A stretch of 64,000 bases of DNA from the NCBI RefSeq assembly GCF_965638725.1, contig NC_134970.1:5996001-6060000 (forward strand), given 5' to 3'. The position numbers were made by a program, and so were the translations under genes. Shown piece by piece: positions 16,756 to 52,754 of the stretch. The DNA comes from Aptenodytes patagonicus. Its lineage: Eukaryota > Chordata > Aves > Sphenisciformes > Spheniscidae. The notes under the pieces were generated by a model that worked only from the letters and a program-made list of their open reading frames with translations, searched no databases and was not told the origin of the DNA. Position 1 is the first letter of the stretch, and every line of letters begins with the position of its first letter.

Positions 16756-19700
16756 TTAGAGGTCCTGAGTCTCCAGCTCCGGACATCCCCTTGCTCCCTG
16801 CAGCGCCCTGCAAGGGAAAGCCGGGGGAGGGGGGGTGGTTTAGGGTAGGGTGGCCCAGAGCAGGGATCCCCAAAGCCCCCCCCCCAAGTGGGATGGTGTT
16901 GCACCCACCTCCTCTCCGGCTCCTCAGGGTCGCAGCCTCCATCTTCCAGCGACCGCTCCACGACCTGCACAGAGGGAGGGGGAACAGGGAGATGAGCCCT
17001 GGGGAAGGGGAGGGGGCCGCGGCAGGGGGGGCTCTCACCCCCAGCGCAATGGGGGGGGGGGGGGGGGAAATCTCCCAAATAACAGCCTCCCACCCCGCTC
17101 AGCACCACCACTTGTCCCCCCCATCTCGAAATGATAGGGAAACTGAGGCAGGAGAGGATGCTTGTGCCCGGGGAGGAGGCGGGGGGGCTCGGGGAGGGGG
17201 GGGAGCCTTACCCTGGATTTATACTTGTAGAAGAGCAGCCCTCCCATGGCCAGCAAGACGGCCACCACGCTGGCCACCGTGATGTATATCAGGGGCTCCC
17301 AGCGGCCTTCCTTGACAGCCGGCTCCTTCCTGCGCTGCTCTGTGCTCAGAACAAAGCCAGAGTCAAAGCTGGGGCCGGCCCTGCCGTCCTCGGGCTCCCG
17401 CAGCCGGCTCAGCCCCCAGCCTTGCACCCTCGCCCCGTCCCCGGGGCCGCCCGGCACTCGGCCCCGCATCCCTGGGGCCATCCTGGAGAAACGGAGCTGC
17501 GTGACGGGCTCGGATGCCTCGGTGGGACGGATCCTGGCTCCGCCGCCTGCCGAGCCGGTGCTGGGGGATGCTGCCGGCGTGGTGGTCCTGAGCCCGCCAG
17601 GATGGTCTGGGAGGATGGAGGCTCCCTCTTGCTGGGCCGGATCCTGCGGCGGATGGCCGGCCACCGCTTCGGTGCTCCCCTCCACCAGCTCTCCATCCCC
17701 ACACAGGATGGGGACGTCCACCGCCGCCAGGCTAAGGGTCCCGGCCGGATCCAGGAGGGCTTCGGCACTGTCGGCTGGAGCTGTCTGCTGCATCGCGGGG
17801 GACAGCACCGATGCCGTGTCACCTACCCCGGCACCCAGGACCTCCTCAGTCCCCGAGCCACCGTCTGTGCTACTGGGGGGCTGAGACAGGGCATCTAAGT
17901 CAGCAAGGGTGGCATGGAGGAGGCTGTAAGGGACCCGGGTGCTAGCGGGTGCCACCTCCCTGCCGGCATGGGTGGCAGCAGAGAGGGAGGGCTGGGTGGC
18001 AGAAGGGAGGGCAGGGGACAGGCAATTGCAGTCAGGATCTGTCCCCACACCTGAAAGAAGCAGAGAGAAGAGACGGCCATGGGGTCACCAGCCTCCAAGA
18101 GGAGCACAGCCAGCAGATCCGAGGTCAGGGGCAGCAACCCCATCCCTCCCCACAGCCCTGGGCAAGAGGGTCAAACAACCTCCTGCCCAAAAAAAAACCA
18201 AAACAACAAACAGGGAGGGCAAAGGTGAGGCAGAGAACAGGCAGGGAGCAGGCAGGGACAGACGTGGCAGCACGAAGATGACAAGCAGCGGGCAGGATGA
18301 AGCAAACCCGAATCACCGGGTCCCCTGAGCAGACGGCACCGGGTTATCCACGACTGGCAGGAGCCAGACAGCCACGTTTAACGTCCCCCACGGCACAGGG
18401 ACACGGCACGGCTCCGACACATAGGTGGCAGCGAGACGTCTCCTCCGCGGGCATGCAAACACACAGCGCAGGCGCTCGCGAAAGCACAGACGGCAACACG
18501 GGTTCTTCCACCCCGGCGGGCAATGCTCTCCCTGGGGAAACTGAGGCACGGGGCAGTTGAAGTGACACAGCCAAGGTCATGCAGCACGTCGGTGGCAGAG
18601 TGTCCCAACGCCTCGATTTCTCCGTGTTATGCCCAAGCCAGGCGCTGCGGCTTTGAGATGGAGCTGAGCCTGATGCCTCCAGCCAGGCCGACGGAGATGC
18701 CTCCTCATTCCCCCTCAGCATCTCTCTGGCCTTGTCTCCAGCAAGTTTCGGCCCAAATCCCACCTCCAAAGGGTGACCAGCCCCTTCTCCCAACCCGGGC
18801 TCTCCCCAGACATAGACGCAGAGCTCGCCGACACACCGCCAAGGCCACCCCACGGGGACGGCCACCAGCCGAGCAACAGAGACGGGGACTAATGCAGACA
18901 CATGCCGTGCCCACGGCACCCGCGTGTGCCCATGGACGGGGACACGCGGCTCTCAAGCTGCTCCATGCAGACGAGCCCAAACCCGCCAGCCCGGCACAGA
19001 TTTGCCGGGCAGAGACAAAGCCTCAGCATCTCACCTGGTGAGGATCCGGCCTTCTTGGGTCCCAAGCAGGTCCTGCCGTAGACCTGGCTGCAGTCCTTCT
19101 CGAAGGTCTCCTGGTTCTGCAGCAGCTGGTTGATGTCCTGGAAGAATTGCTTCACCAGCACCAGCATCTCGTAGGGGGAGGTGGTGAACTCCTCGAAGCA
19201 CATTTGCGAGAGCTGGAGGAAGAGCTGGGCTCAGCATCGGCTCCACAACCATGCTGGGCAGCCGGTGTCACCGCCACGGGGTACCACGCTGCACCCAGGG
19301 CAGGGTTTGACCCCACCATGGCTCCCTGTGTCCATGCACACCCCATCTCTGCTCCACTTCAAGGTCCTGCCCACGCACCCACCCCAGGATGCTCTGGATA
19401 CCCCATTTCACCCAAGGTTGAGGACTCAGACCCACACCCCTGTGGATCTGGCACCCCACGAGGCAGGGGACACCGTACCTTTCTCTCCTCATCATCCTCC
19501 TCCTTGATGCAGGGGTCGACGTTCTCGTCGATGCGGCTGTACATGCTGCGCACCATCTGCATCTTCTTGGCGTTGGACGAGTTCTCCTTGAACTCGGTTC
19601 GCTCCAGGATCTTGCCCAGCAGAGGAAAAGCGGCTTTCACGTAGCAGACGGAATCGTTCTGCGAGGAACACGGACCCCCCAAAAAAGCGAGACCGGTTAC

Positions 19701-22700
19701 TGGATGGGCAGAGGCAGCACCACCCGTCCCACTCTGCCTGGGGGAAACTGAGGCACGGAGCCACAAAATGCCTTTCTACGGTCCCGCAGGCTGCCCAAGC
19801 TGGGACTCGACAGCCGCCTGGCCAGGCAGGATGGGTCCCTCCTGGGCTGCCTCCCGCAAAGGGGGACAGGAGAGGGGAGACTGGGGACCCGGGGACCCCC
19901 CTATGCACCAGCCAGCCCTGGTCCCTGTCCCCTTCTGTCCCCTGGTGCCCAGCGAGGAGCCACTCACCAACTGCATCTTATTGATGAACTTGAAGGAGAC
20001 CCTGCCTGGGTGCTGCATCTGGGTGTCAGCCTGGAAGGAGAGAGCAGGATGTCACCCCGCGGCTCCGGGGGGATAACACAGCAGGAAGGGGCAGCGGAGC
20101 CGACACGGGCACCCCGAGGGCATGAAGGGGTGCCTAAGCCCCCCGAATCCACAGGACTGCGGGGTTCTGCTCCCACCCCTGCTTCATCCCACACCATCTT
20201 CCTCCTCGCACAGACATTCCCTAAGGTCAAACCTCTGGCAGGGGGGAGCCCAGGATCCCTGCTCCCACCAAGACGGCACGCTCCCCATACCAGAGACGCC
20301 TGCCTCCTCCTTGCCAGCTCCCACCCCGCCTCTCTTCCTCCTCCTCTTCCTCCCAGCACCACCAAGCAGAGCCCGGCCCTGCTTGTTTCTCCCAGGGTCT
20401 CCCTCGCACCGCTCGCTCTGCTAAAGCCGGGCTGCAAAAGAGCAGCCTGCCATGCAGGAGGTGGTCGTGACACCAAGGTCACATATCCCCCTGCGTCACA
20501 CAACGCCGGGGTCCCGCACACAGCGCTGCCGGCTCCCCGTACCACGACCCTTTCCGACGGGGGTGAAAACCCACCCCAAACAAGCCCCCTGCCTCCGGGC
20601 CGGCATCCCAGGCTGGGAGGGCGAGGGCTGCCAGAATTGCCGGCCGGCAATTCTGGCAGCCCTCGCCCTCCCAGCCTGGGATGCCGGCCCGGCAGCCCTC
20701 GCCCTCCCAGCCTGGGATGCCGGCCCGGAAACAATTGCTCCATTATCCCCGCAGGGGCTGGAGCGAGGGCCGGCTCCTCGGCCAGCGGGAAGAGGAGAGG
20801 GCTGTAATCCCCAGCAGAGAAACCACGACTTCCATTCAAACCTGCTCCGTCCCCTTTCTTCCCCCCCAACCACACACCCACTTTTAATCCCCGGGGGTTG
20901 CAAAGCAAAGGCTCCCCGGAGACGTTGGGGTGCTGGGGCTGCAGGGACAGCTCGGGCAGAGGAAGCTGAGCTTGCACACACGACATCTGCCAGCTCCTGG
21001 CACCGCAGCTCGGTGCTTAAAGAGGAAGAGGTAAAGCAAGCCCGGACACAGCTGCGAGCTGGAGAGCTCGGTGCAAAGCAAGCGGGCAGCGAGGATTCAG
21101 AGGCGCCGCTATCGCCTCTCGCCCGCACACCCCACTCGCTGCAACGGCAGAATTTAATCTGTGACAACTGTGCAAATCCCTGCGTGTCCCCGATTCCCGT
21201 TTCTCTCCCGAGCATCTGCGTGATTCCCTGCTCAGAGGTGAGCCAAGGGCCAGGGTGGGATACGGCCCCAGCAGCCGAGATGGGGCCAGGAGTTGCTTCC
21301 CTGTGGGGTGGGTGCAAGCACCCGGAGCTGCCCACGGGATGAAGGCACCCATCGCCCCAGCCTGGCTGGCTCCGTCGCCCAGCTAGCCTGGCCAACGGCC
21401 CCCCTCACTGCCTGCCACCCACCCACAGCCCCATTGCCAGCCCAGCTTCCAGGCAAGCAGCTGGACTCAGGAATGCAGCCGGATTCCTCCGCTTAACCCC
21501 TGCGCAGCCGCACAGAAAACGCCATGGCCCCACAGCACCGGTCCTCTCCACCGCTTCCCCATCACCCCTGCACCCATCCAGCCCCGCTTGTGCCCCCTTC
21601 CCTGCCACGCTCCTGCCAGCTCCCACTTCCCCTCTTTCTCAGTTTCTCCCACCGGCACTTTTCCGTGGCCACCCTTGCTAAAGGCACCACGGTGTGTCAC
21701 CCCCCAGTGCCCGCTTGTCCCTCATGCCCACGGATGCTCAACTGGTAGAGCTGAAAATAAGCTGATTCGCTGCTTTTCAGCCCTAACTAAGGGCTGATTT
21801 GCGCCTGCCCAGCCCCAAACAGGCCCCCGTCCCGCAGCAGAGCCCGGGGAGGGCACTCACCAGCTCCTCCAGCTCGGCCAGGTGCTTCTCCGTGATGATC
21901 TGCTGGCAGTAGCTGTTCTGCTCCGTCTCATGGATGCTGCAGACCAGGAGGAGGAGGAGGGACGACAGCAGGGTGCAGCGGAGCAGGCACACCTGAGCAT
22001 GGCAGAGCAAAGGCTTGGAGTAGGGCAATCCCCCCCCCCCGAGCCCCCTGCCCTTCCCCACCATCCCCCAGAGGAGCCACCTTTGCAGTGGACAGGGCTT
22101 GATCAGGATCCAGCGGGAAAACCCCACCACGGTCCTCCAACCCTGTGCCCGTCCCCATCCTGCTATTTTTAGGAGCACCCGGTCAGTGGGGAACTTCCCA
22201 GTGCCTGGCACGGGGGCTGTGTGGCCAGGGCCCGGCTGGCACAAGCCTGGACATGGCTCTCGGCCACCTCCACATTCCCCATCCAGCCCTTGTCCCCTCT
22301 CCCGCACCATTTCTCAGTCTCTCCTGCAAATCTTCTCCTCCACCCCGGCTCCAGGGAGCCGTCTGACGCACAGACCCACCCATCCCCAAAAATCCTCTTC
22401 CCACTCTCCAGACGCCCCCAACCTCCAGTGCCTGCACCCGCCGGGCTCTTTCCATGCAGCGGCTCTGGCGTCACCCCAAATTCCCCACCCAATCCCCCTG
22501 CAAAGAAGCGGGGAGGCCCCGAACCGTGGCGGGACCCCAGTGGGCAACGGGGCTTGTCCCAGGGCCAAGACCCCCGAGGTGGGGATGGAGCAGACCTCCG
22601 GGGTGGGTGCGTGTGCCCCCCTTCCCGGTGCACCGGCACCGAGAGGGTGTCTGGGTGATGGGGTGGGGGGGAATTTCCCTTGGAGGTTGTCCAGAAATTC

Positions 22701-23281
22701 TCCCCTCTTGTGAAACTAGAAGATGCCGCCCGGGCCACCACCGAGACACGGCCACGGCTGGCCGGAGCCTCACCCCGCCGGGGACGGGCTGGAGCCGGGG
22801 GACGGGACGGGGCTGGAGCCGGGGGACGGGACGGGGCTGGAGCCGGAGCCTCTCCCCGCCGGGTCCGGGAACCGGGACGGGACCGGAGCTGAGAACCGGG
22901 GCGGGGACGGGGCTTCACCCCGCGGGTCCGGGAGCCGGAACGGGGCTGGAACCGAGAACCGGGACGGGACTGGAGCCTCAGCCCGCGGGTCCGGGAACCG
23001 AGCCGGGGCTGGAGCATCGCCCCGCCGAGAGCCGGGACCCCCGAAGAGGGGATTCGCCACGTCCCCCTGCGCGACCGAGGAGGGGTGACGAGGAGAACCG
23101 GGGCCGACGGACCGGCGGGGTCCGCTCCCCCCGGGGACCCCGCACAGGTGGCAGCGGGCGCCGTGCCGGGGGCGGGAGGGGGGGGGGGGGGGGTCGTGGG
23201 TGGGTGGGGTCCCCGCGTGGGGTGGGGTGGGGTGGGGGGTAGCGGGAGGGGCCGCCGTACCTTGGCTCCGAGGCGGGGCAT
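16756..23281 (-). CDS. CSF1: CSF1, macrophage colony-stimulating factor, complete CDS (8 coding exons)
   Basis: Coding exons (minus strand) are 23281-23261, 21992-21861, 20030-19968, 19658-19479, 19212-19035, 18050-17212, 16964-16909 and 16807-16756. Together they give 506 residues in one consistent frame, all with GT/AG borders. Residues 1-28 are a signal peptide (MPRLGAK, then a leucine-rich core). The four-helix cytokine domain follows, with cysteines in YCQQI, VCYVK, DPCIKEE, MCFEEF, KDCSQV and GRTC. The large exon 6 encodes a Ser/Thr/Pro-rich spacer starting with the conserved PDCNC motif and a membrane span at about 445-466, then a KYKSR stop-transfer. A short acidic tail ends ELETQDL. 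CSF1 is the CSF1R ligand that drives macrophage and osteoclast survival and proliferation. The membrane form is cleaved to release dimers. The residue aligned with human Cys31, the interchain disulphide, is Gly60. Confidence 0.96.
17136..17150 (-). repeat. Short MIR core fragment
   Basis: AGGGAAACTGAGGCA, the MIR-core 15-mer with one change, lies in CSF1 intron 6. Next to it, minus-strand sequence reads CCCTATCATTT, like the MIR stretch after CAGTTTCC. Confidence 0.5.
18534..18650 (-). repeat. MIR SINE relic in CSF1 intron 5
   Basis: On the minus strand it reads like the MIR core: GTGACTTGG-type sequence, then TGCCTCAGTTTCCCC. On plus, GGGGAAACTGAGGCACG is followed by GTTGAAGTGACACAGCCAAG and a GGTCATGCAGC...GGTGGCAGAG block. 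This matches the MIR consensus over about 70 bp and decays beyond. Confidence 0.85.
19741..19812 (-). repeat. MIR SINE relic in CSF1 intron 3
   Basis: It starts with GGGGAAACTGAGGCACGGAG and continues through a GGTCCCGCAGG block to AGCTGGGACTCGA, matching the MIR order GGTCACACAGC ... GCTGGGATTCGA with heavy divergence. Confidence 0.75.
20595..20692. repeat. 98-bp perfect palindrome in CSF1 intron 2
   Basis: Two 49-bp arms (20595-20643 and 20644-20692) are exact reverse complements with no spacer. The centre is GCCGG/CCGGC. Positions 20693-20728 repeat the last 36 bases of the right arm as a direct copy, so the locus has one inverted and two direct copies of the same unit. Confidence 0.95.
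22760..23050. repeat. GC-rich minisatellite in CSF1 intron 1
   Basis: Repeated blocks of GGAGCCGGGGGACGGGACGG type, initially a 24-bp unit and then degenerate with CCGAGAACCGGGACGGG variants, lie just inside intron 1 of CSF1, 0.2-0.5 kb from the start codon. They are G-rich on the plus strand. Confidence 0.8.
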
Positions 23282-23386: not shown

Positions 23387-23394
23387 CCTTTATA
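23387..23394 (-). promoter_or_regulatory. CSF1: CSF1 TATA box
   Basis: TATAAAGG on the minus strand lies 106 bases upstream of the CSF1 ATG in a CCG-repeat context. A TATA box here predicts transcription starting near 23,360 and a 5' UTR of roughly 80 bases containing the CCG run (23368-23382). Confidence 0.75.
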
Positions 23395-23450
23395 GCGCCG
23401 CGGCAGCATGTGGTTTATGAGAAAGGGCTGGCGGCCGGCCAGCGCCCGCG

Positions 23451-23756
23451 GCTCGGCTCGGCTCGGCCCCGCTCGGCTCGGCTCGGCCCCGCTCGGCTCG
23501 GCTCGGCTCGGCTCGGCTCGGCTCGGCTCGGCCCCCCTGGGACCGGCCCCGCTCGGAGCGGATCGGGTCCAGCCCGGCTCGGCTCGGCTCGGCTCGGCCC
23601 CCTGGGATCGGCCCCGCTCGGAGCGGATCGGGTCCAGCTCGGCTCGGCTCGGCTCGGCTCGGCTCGGTTCGGCTCGGCTCGGCCCCCTGGGATCGGCCCC
23701 GCTCGGAGCGGATGGGGTCCGGTCCGGCTCGGCTCGGCTCGGCTCGGCTCGGCTCG
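23451..23756. repeat. (GGCTC)n pentamer array with higher-order structure upstream of CSF1
   Basis: GGCTC/GCTCG pentamers run for about 300 bp. They are interrupted three times by the same spacer beginning CCCCCTGGGA(C/T)CGGCC and containing GCTCGGAGCGGAT. The array starts about 60 bp upstream of the CSF1 TATA box. It has higher-order repeats of about 70-90 bp. Confidence 0.92.
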
Positions 23757-23800
23757 CAGCGGCGGGCGCTGTGTGCGCGACCCCCCCACCCCCTGCACCA

Positions 23801-24690
23801 TCACTTGCACACACACACATGCATGCACGCCCCTGGGCACGCGCACTTGCATGTCCATGCATGCCCCTGGGCACGTGCACGCGTACACACACGGGGATGC
23901 GCAGATGTGCACGCGCCAAGGTTGGAGCCCCCCCGCCCGTATGTGCATGCACACCCCTTGGAACACGTACATATGCGCACACACACACACGCATGCACAG
24001 CACTGGGGCATGCACACGCGCACACACACACGCTACTGTATGCGCAGCACCGGGGCTTGCACACATGTATGTGTATGGTCACCCCTGGGCACTTGCACCC
24101 ATGTATGTGTATGGTCACCCCTGGGCACTTGCACCCATGTGCACACGCAGCGCGTGCACACACACACACACACACACCCTGGGGCTCGCACACGTGTGCA
24201 TGCTCACTTCTGGGCACTTGCACACACGCAGCGTGCGCATGCGTGCGCACACACACACACAGCCCTTGGGCTTGCACACATGCATATGTGCATGCTTACC
24301 CCTGGGCACACGCACACGCACACGTGACACAACATGTGCGTGCATGCACAGACCCCACACCTGCATGCACAGACGTGCATGCACACCCATGCACATGTGC
24401 GCACGCACACCACCCACATACACACTGCACGCGTGCACACAAACACACGCCCAACGTGCACACATGCATAAACTCCTACATGCACACACACCTTACACGC
24501 ACACCTGTGTAACCATGCGGCTGTGCGTGCACACCCACACGCATACATTCCGCACACGCAGGGTTGCATGTTTATGTTTGCGCACAAACCACAAATATAC
24601 ACACACGCCCCTTCCACCTGCAGGTGTACACCCACAATCCCACGTGCAGCATACACAAACACGCTGACACGCACACCAACACACCACCCC
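23801..24690. repeat. Degenerate CA/CG/TG alternating purine-pyrimidine tract
   Basis: About 0.9 kb dominated by CACACA, GCGCAC, GCATGC and CACGTG alternations. The cleanest stretches are near 23970-24000, 24135-24178, 24235-24262 and 24305-24327. Two near-identical 37-bp copies around TATGTGTATGGTCACCCCTG occur near 24067 and 24104. The tract lies 0.4-1.3 kb upstream of the CSF1 TATA box. Confidence 0.9.
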
Positions 24691-25147
24691 AGTGCATCGG
24701 CGACGCCGACGCGCAGCCCCGCTGCAGCTTTGTGCCTTGCTCCTGGTCCACGCCATAAGTTTTCCTGCAGAAAATCCTGCGTGGGTCTGACAACCTTCCC
24801 CTTGCAGCACGTGCCTGGTTTGTCCCCAAAACGCCGCCATTTGCAGCCCACCGCAGCCGAAATGCCCTCGAGAGACGTTTCTGCCATGCAGAGGGTTGCA
24901 GGCGATTTGGGAGCGGGGTGCCCTTGCCGTGCCGGGGTGTAGGGCTCATGGGTGCACTGGGTGCTGGGAGCAGTGGCGGGGCGGGGGATTTGGGGTGTCA
25001 GCGTGTGTGAGCGGGGCAGGAGTCGAGGCATCGGGGACAAGAGGATGGTGAGAGGCCCCAGGGTGTTCCTGCAGCGGCTGATTCAGGCTCCCACGGCTGC
25101 TTTGCCTATTGCTGGTGCCGGGCAGGCAGCAGGCACAGAGGTGTGTG

Positions 25148-25812
25148 AACGGATCCGTGGGCGTGGGCGTGCATGGACGGATCCGTGTGTGCAGGGATGG
25201 GTCCGTTTGCATGGGTGTGCATGGACGGATCCGTGTGTGCAGGGATGGATCCGTTTGCATGGGTGTGCATGGACGGATCCGTGTGTGCAGGGGTGGATCC
25301 GTTTGCATGGGTGTGCATGGACGGATCCGTGTGTGCAGGGGTGGATCCGTTTGCATGGGTGTGCATGGACGGATCCGTGTGTGCAGGGGTGGATCCATTT
25401 GCATGGGTGTGCATGGACGGATCCGTGTGTGCAGGGATGGGTCCGTTTGCATGGGTGTGCATGGACGGATCCGTGTGTGCAGGGGTGGATCCGTTTGCAT
25501 GGGTGTGCATGGACGGATCCGTGTGTGCAGGGATGGATCCGTTTGCATGGGTGTGCATGGACGGATCCGTGTGTGCAGGGGTGGATCCGTTTGCATGGGT
25601 GTGCATGGACGGATCCGTGTGTGCAGGGGTGGATCCGTTTGCATGGGCGTGCATGGACGGATCCGTGTGCATGGATGGATCCATGTGTGCATGGATGGAT
25701 CCACACGTGCACGGACGGATCCACACGTGCACGGACGGATCCACGTGTGCACAAGCAGATCCATTTGCATGGGTGTGCAGGAAGGGATCCATGAGTGCTC
25801 GGACGGATCCTT
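25148..25812. repeat. 48-bp minisatellite (two 24-bp halves, each with GGATCC)
   Basis: About ten units whose first half is GCATGGACGGATCCGTGTGT plus GCAG, and whose second half is GGGTGGATCCGTTTGCATGG plus GTGT. A degraded tail of CGTGCACGGACGGATCCACA type follows to 25812. The unit is a multiple of three and lacks stops, which leaves roughly 280-codon frames open on both strands. These are not genes. Confidence 0.95.
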
Positions 25813-35781: not shown

Positions 35782-36466
35782 GGGCACCCTCGTCTCCAGG
35801 GCACCCTCGTTAACGGAGCATCCGCATCTCTGGGGCACCCTTATTAATGGAGCAGCCACGTTAATGGGGGACCCTCACCTCTGGGGTGTCCTTGTCTCCA
35901 GGGCACCCTCCTCCCTGGGGCACCCTGACCTCTGGGGCACCCTCACCTCTGGGGCACCCTCACCTCCAGGGCACCATTACCTCCATGGCACCCTTAGTAA
36001 TGGGGCACCCACATTAACGGGGCACCCACATTAACAGGGCACCCTCATCCCTGAGGCACCCTCATCTCCAGGGCACCCGTACCTCCATGGCACCCTTAGT
36101 AATGGGGCACCCACATTAACAGGGCACCCTCGTCCCTGGGGCACCCTTACCTCCAGGGCACCCTTAGTAATGGGGCACCCACATTAACAGGGCACCATCG
36201 TCCCTGGGGCACCCTCACCTCTGGGGCACCCTCATCTCCAGGGCACCCTTACCTCCAGGGCACCCTTAGTAATGGGGCACCCACATTAACAGGGCACCAT
36301 CATCTCTGGGACACCCTCACCTCGAGGGCACCCTCATCTCAGGGGCAGCAGCATATCTGGGGCACCCTTATTAACCGGGCACCCATATTAATAGGGCAAC
36401 GTCATCTCTCGGGCACCGATATTAACTGGGCACCCTCATTATCTGACACCCTCCCCTCCAGGGCAC
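35782..36466. repeat. 17-bp GGGCACCCTCACCTCTG minisatellite with higher-order repeat
   Basis: About 40 units of 17 bp. A marker unit, CCCTTAGTAATGGGGCACCC, recurs at about 35991, 36093, 36161 and 36263. The spacings of 102, 68 and 102 bp are 6, 4 and 6 units, so a multi-unit block has been copied within the array. Confidence 0.9.
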
Positions 36467-52654: not shown

Positions 52655-52754
52655 NNNNNNNNNNNNNNNNNNNNNNNNNNNNNNNNNNNNNNNNNNNNNN
52701 NNNNNNNNNNNNNNNNNNNNNNNNNNNNNNNNNNNNNNNNNNNNNNNNNNNNNN
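52655..52754. other. Assembly gap (100 N)
   Basis: Exactly 100 undetermined bases, a conventional placeholder for a gap of unknown size. It cuts an AMPD2 exon on the right and a GST exon on the left. Confidence 0.99.

Follow-up and report, generated by a model that had tools for sequence, protein, structure and literature searches.

The window, i.e., the whole 64,000-nt stretch of DNA that we analyzed (positions 5,996,001 to 6,060,000 of an 8.34-Mb contig, in a genome of 1.35 Gb), harbors a CSF1 gene encoded by minus-strand exons running from 23281 down to ~17200. The identity of this gene, already proposed in the preliminary description, is supported by the match of the joined exon protein to the Pfam CSF-1 profile (1.4e-18) and by its matches to solved CSF-1 structures (PDB CSF-1 chains). 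A search of the whole genome with the same Pfam profile, performed without introns, yielded no match, although the CSF1 gene is present, and no relative emerged when bacterial and archaeal genomes were scanned once for stray DNA of CSF1. Domain fragments of PTB, SAM, GST, and AMP deaminase lie at 46.8-54.7 kb of the window (in this vicinity, one match to SH3 and another to AMP deaminase fell slightly under the cut-offs); we take the PTB/SAM, GST, and AMP deaminase fragments to represent EPS8L3(-like), GSTM, and AMPD2, i.e., the neighborhood of CSF1 in human. The features of the gene and of its upstream region are as follows.

17215-21992, minus strand: further CSF1 exon pieces (21861-21992, 19968-20024, 19482-19658, 19048-19212, and from 18048 on), boundaries approximate
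17215-17307, minus strand: CSF1 transmembrane segment, boundaries approximate
23261-23281, minus strand: first coding exon of CSF1 (MPRLGAK), start codon at 23279-23281
23388-23396, minus strand: CSF1 TATA box, GCTATAAAG on the minus strand, putatively used as promoter
23429-23441, no strand assigned: TGGCN5GCCA palindrome, 32 bp upstream of the CSF1 TATA box
23449-23756, no strand assigned: CGGCT pentamer array of ~300 bp, between TATA box and alternating tract
23801-24690, no strand assigned: alternating purine-pyrimidine tract, predicted to be Z-DNA-prone, with its Z-dense part at 23801-24500
23832-24310, plus strand: part in which the spacer CC(C)TGGGC(AC) or a variant of it recurs, with eleven starts found by motif search (23832, 23866, 23957, 24003, 24050, 24084, 24120, 24179, 24210, 24264, and 24301)
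24056-24140, plus strand: 36-bp tandem duplication within the tract, 2.4 copies, 97% match
24231-24254, no strand assigned: strongest predicted Z site, GCGTGCGCATGCGTGCGCACACAC, according to a re-implemented Z-Hunt
25151-25669, plus strand: 48-bp minisatellite, 10.8 copies, 96% match, weakly Z-prone

Upstream from the TATA box, the order is NFI-type palindrome, CGGCT array, alternating tract, and 48-bp minisatellite, with the GC-rich pentamer array separating tract and TATA box as originally described. Nowhere in the window are tandem repeats as dense as in the 2.4 kb lying upstream of the TATA box (TRF cover of 0.44 versus 0.067 overall). The pentamer array has a 65-bp higher-order period; the 48-bp minisatellite, which is possibly length-variable, carries repeated GGATCC; and a further array at 35865-36441, of 17-bp units of the GGGCACCCTCA type, displays higher-order periods of 34, 68, and 102 bp. 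TGGCN5GCCA is the full palindromic NFI/CTF consensus, and Liu reportedly found in 2001 that an NFI/CTF site is needed at the human CSF1 promoter. Exact TGGCN5GCCA sites number five in the window relative to 4.35 expected, and it is only the position of the palindrome at 23429-23441 that makes this putative site notable.

It had been proposed that ~0.9 kb of alternating purine-pyrimidine sequence lies at 23801-24690, 0.4-1.3 kb upstream of the CSF1 TATA box. The distance determined from the sequence (0.40-1.29 kb) agreed with this proposal, as did the degree of alternation: 0.767 of steps alternate over 23801-24690, relative to a window mean of 0.42, and the most alternating 890-bp window of the 64 kb spans 23794-24683 (0.771). 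The next non-overlapping 890-bp window, at 24881-25770, reached 0.592, and 200 mononucleotide shuffles of the tract gave an alternation of 0.497 (largest, 0.537). What did not stand was continuity; we rejected a single unbroken alternating run, as the tract comprises 24 alternating runs of ≥12 bp (12-37 bp each, out of 36 such runs in the window) with spacers. These spacers, of the CCCTGGGC type, recur between the runs (overlapping matches one base apart were taken as one in our count), and a 44-nt family is represented in the tract by 11 partly overlapping copies, 10 of which are 61-75% like the reference. Because of these recurring spacers, the 36-bp duplication, and the 44-nt family, we read the tract as a mosaic, decayed CA/TG/CG minisatellite with an alternating unit body, most units being too decayed for TRF; the repeated units inside it place it in the class of minisatellites or composite tandem repeats. 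Its 341 YR steps comprise 179 CA, 87 TG, 52 CG, and 23 TA. Known GC/CA-rich minisatellites and composite microsatellites resemble the tract in having units and spacers, internal duplication, and decay by substitution, whereas the tract is long and strongly alternating, and thus of high predicted Z potential. An origin from the neighboring 48-bp minisatellite was rejected on a comparison of the units alone, which differ, and an assembly-gap effect was rejected because the sole gap of the window lies at 52655-52754.

Predicted Z potential was scored with our own re-implementation of Z-Hunt, including its energies and normalization, such that absolute scores may differ from those of the original program; the re-implementation ranked CG > GCATGC > CA > TA. 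The tract accounted for 393 of the 592 window positions scoring >1000, for 140 of the 152 scoring >10,000, and for all 15 scoring >100,000. More specifically, scores >1000 were obtained at 44% (0.442) of tract positions, or at 0.454 when the tract was scored alone, relative to 0.145 for 100 dinucleotide-preserving shuffles (sd, 0.030; largest, 0.226) and 0.007 for 100 mononucleotide shuffles. Our background consisted of the window and a sample of 20 pieces of 10 kb each from its contig (200 kb including 5,000 N), and the best 890-bp cluster held 400 positions >1000 at the CSF1 tract versus ≤36 in each of these pieces. The Z-DNA-prone character initially ascribed to the tract is thereby upheld in the Z-Hunt sense, its score being well over the background of the window and one contig, and the predicted capacity for Z formation is strong. 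Density was high in 23801-24500 and low in 24501-24690 (0.126 of positions >1000). Between the TATA box and the tract (23397-23760, including the CGGCT array), no score >1000 was found, the highest being 981, and a Z site of that strength nearer to the TATA box was accordingly rejected; the nearest score >1000 lies ~0.37 kb upstream.

We also computed Z-DNA formation under torsion by means of a competition model with junction costs for closed domains of 3, 5, and 10 kb, which is a calculation and not a measurement. At a superhelical density of -0.040, the model predicted means of 0.4, 0.8, and 1.2 Z domains, respectively, for the tract, versus 0.1, 0.1, and 0.3 for TG16 in ordinary flank, where TG16 is a stand-in for the human repeat with a length not taken from human sequence. 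At -0.070, the strongest density tried, the tract would contain 46, 76, and 152 bp of Z in 3, 5, and 10 kb, implying that few runs flip at once; ordinary window pieces would also contain 20-74 bp of Z.

As the preliminary description had stated, the TG repeats of the human CSF1 promoter are known to convert to Z-DNA; PMC3293710 reports that they do so upon activation by BRG1 and that they are nucleosomal before activation. With this human precedent (PMC3293710 and PMC6294567), a convergent switch can be envisaged for the bird, in which NFI would recruit BAF at the TATA-proximal site, remodeling would free negative supercoils, a run of the tract would turn into Z-DNA, and the CSF1 promoter would be held open. 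Bird and human share the gene and an upstream alternating sequence, and the strong predicted Z potential of the tract and the exact NFI-type palindrome close to the bird TATA box both fit such a switch. A reader of Z-DNA is also encoded in this genome, as indicated by the following frame, which is probably ADAR1.

L032 (C26:630731-631225): an open frame of 492 aa carrying two z-alpha domains, which are joined by a linker of ~40 residues

In contrast to the human repeats, which PMC3293710 describes as "within" the promoter, the tract of the bird, a broken mosaic of 0.9 kb, extends from 0.4 to 1.3 kb upstream of the TATA box, with nothing >1000 closer than ~0.37 kb; it thus does not appear to be a Z-forming TG repeat inside the promoter of the human CSF1 type, and its Z formation is a prediction. 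NFI-type sites, moreover, are no more frequent in the window than expected by chance. We rejected the possibility that the tract is orthologous to the human TG repeat, a judgment based on its different position and not on an alignment. In index listings of the published literature, we found nothing on a bird CSF1 upstream tract or on avian CSF1 promoter repeats, nor any work on alternating purine-pyrimidine minisatellites in chicken.

An argument against the CSF1-specific reading came from the rest of the genome. A genome search with the CSF1 tract returned no close copy; distant likenesses were found on contigs C19, C73, C5, C16, and C169, all of which are alternating tracts of 0.4 to >2 kb, and short matches were obtained at further places. 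The tract on C19 lies upstream of a CpG-rich first exon.

L022:1440-2770 (C19:1298054-1299384): 1.3-kb alternating tract with units of ~36-60 bp

It exceeds the CSF1 tract in both length and Z density, and starts ~0.35 kb upstream of the start codon, in CpG-rich DNA. Exons ~9 to 11 kb beyond this start codon, and in the same orientation, gave matches to Pfam Sugar_tr and are presumably GLUT1/SLC2A1; they appear to belong to the first exon beside the tract, in which case the CpG-island promoter would be that of SLC2A1. A fragment beside another tract had no Pfam match, and we take it to be CR1-like, a bird retroposon. This fragment, together with the likeness of CSF1 and GLUT1 to their chicken counterparts, points to a bird genome.

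Using the C19 tract as query, with 40 of 90 candidates scored, we obtained 57 matches (many of them short and of 64-78% identity) at no fewer than 39 distinct places, query and CSF1 included, and CSF1 ranked 31st of the 57 by likeness to this SLC2A1-side tract. Similar tracts are present at places elsewhere in the same genome: with CSF1 set aside, we read 15 of 38 places, and all 15 hold dense clusters of Z-prone sites. For ten tracts hand-picked among the top 20 of the 57 matches, and therefore biased to strong tracts, the best 890-bp counts of positions >1000 were 689, 575, 700, 624, 515, 501, 297, 445, 283, and 668, such that eight of the ten are denser than CSF1 (400). When clusters were counted in this way, that of L022 extended into its own CpG island. 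Among six tracts compared, alternation was lowest at CSF1 (0.767 versus 0.805-0.864), as was the share of positions >1000 (0.442 versus 0.471-0.780), and CSF1 ranked fourth in the share >10,000 (0.157 versus 0.053-0.327). A 22-bp alternating pattern occurred at 306 places genome-wide versus 25 for its reversed control, indicating that short alternating runs are common too. The 39 places seem to represent a class of CA/TG/CG minisatellites in this genome that are long and alternating, exemplified by the tracts L034-L043.

On these observations, a role of the tract specific to the control of CSF1, as implied by the earlier suggestion, is not supported. With similar and often denser tracts elsewhere in the genome, the CSF1-specific reading lost most of its support, and alternation at CSF1 shows no sign of being better preserved than at other tracts. 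We therefore regard the NFI-BAF switch outlined above as quite unlikely, and the notion that the bird tract stands in for the human proximal TG repeat as no easier to credit. The human parallel is doubtful because the tract looks like a worn repeat array with counterparts elsewhere in the genome, and the likeness to human CSF1 control is probably a coincidence.

CpG-island-like DNA, defined as ≥300 bp within 1 kb of a tract, accompanied 10 of 16 tracts, CSF1 included, and was absent within this distance at the other six; bounds were trimmed by hand for this count at L022, L024, L036, and L038, and right flanks were shorter than 1 kb at L022, L024 (7 bases), L027, and L030. Random placements fell beside such DNA at a frequency of 0.093 in the contig sample and 0.258 in the window, whereas random draws from the same contig at a flank GC of 0.62-0.75 did so at 0.31-0.33 (binomial P ~0.01), the flank GC of L024, L025, L036, L037, and L040 falling outside the two bins that make up this range, or at their limits. 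The excess at the tracts is modest, post hoc, and relative to a one-contig background, and is suggestive. This tie to promoters could be a sign of function: kilobase alternating tracts beside CpG-island promoters might be retained in this lineage as a general buffer absorbing negative supercoils behind strong promoters. Both the 10 of 16 tracts and the capacity predicted by the competition model are consistent with such a buffer, but six tracts have no CpG-island-like DNA nearby, and recombination or GC content can also yield promoter enrichment. We find retention for buffering rather unlikely, and would be similarly hesitant to cite CSF1 and the presumed SLC2A1 gene as instances of it.

According to PMC11580473, birds show an enrichment of Z-DNA motifs within 1 kb upstream of start codons; our tract resembles that case in being Z-prone DNA upstream of a start codon, partly in the first 1 kb, although the study deals with motif counts and a search of it for CSF1 yielded none. 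As stated in PMC5519329, birds are without PRDM9 and their recombination is concentrated near promoters and CpG islands. The association of 10 of 16 tracts with CpG-island-like DNA agrees with both patterns. Promoter-directed recombination is a plausible engine for repeats at bird promoters, and the CpG-island excess would follow either from repeat growth driven by recombination or from a torsional role.

Another possibility is that the tract acts through protein-binding sites instead of Z-DNA, with candidate GCGTG cores and E-boxes serving as an enhancer. GCGTG is the core motif of AHR/ARNT. It occurs 26 times in the tract, whereas dinucleotide shuffles gave 12.2 and not one of 300 attained 26; similarly, TGCGTG occurs 13 times versus 6.3, with one shuffle of 300 reaching 13. 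CACGTG, however, was not clearly enriched (4 versus 2.46, a count reached by 65 of 300 shuffles), and alternation by itself would produce the GCGTG excess. We consider an enhancer of this kind extremely improbable.

We compared substitution patterns for signs of selection. Transition/transversion ratios against the CA or TG unit were 2.38 at CSF1 and 1.82-3.41 at five other tracts, versus 1.14-1.70 in three diverged non-alternating arrays of the window; the 48-bp array gave 5.0, on 12 changes alone, and the pentamer array 0.43. CSF1 is nothing special among the tracts by this measure. There is some circularity in the test, given that likeness was the criterion for choosing the tracts. Decay of methylated CpG and slippage both preserve alternation, so that Z potential can arise without any need of selection. 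The Z potential is clearly greater than in the dinucleotide-shuffled controls, a result that selection for Z formation would equally yield, and the scarcity of TA steps (23 of 341 YR steps), the poorest Z-formers, fits CpG decay and selection alike.

Weighing these results, we conclude that the tract is probably a decayed, promoter-flanking CA/TG/CG minisatellite driven by mutation, with Z-DNA formation under torsion as a possible side effect. Short duplications and microsatellite slippage, with recombination presumably taking part alongside, would have built the tract beside the CpG-rich CSF1 promoter, and mutations, mostly transitions, would then have eroded it. Because transitions spare purine-pyrimidine alternation, its Z-forming power would have been retained without selection. 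The runs of the resulting tract would be expected to compete with one another for Z nucleation, and one to a few of them would flip when negative supercoiling builds up in a closed domain, behind a polymerase or upon nucleosome loss, and the flipped runs would absorb torsion. If the tract does form Z-DNA in cells, as this scheme supposes, any effect on CSF1 would be expected to be mild and without specificity for this gene. That kilobase alternating minisatellites next to CpG-island promoters act in this bird lineage as torsional sinks, flipping stepwise to Z-DNA and holding the promoter open, and that avian CSF1 thereby independently regained the human Z-DNA step, strikes us as very improbable.

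CSF1 is one of the best-known cases of Z-DNA in transcription, which makes a tract at the avian promoter a natural experiment, and the other, partly stronger tracts in the same genome call for caution in reading it in terms of CSF1. The class of kilobase alternating minisatellites, perhaps with a tendency to flank CpG islands, offers a better question than the CSF1 locus itself, and bears on whether recombination or a torsional function is the builder of repeats at bird promoters.
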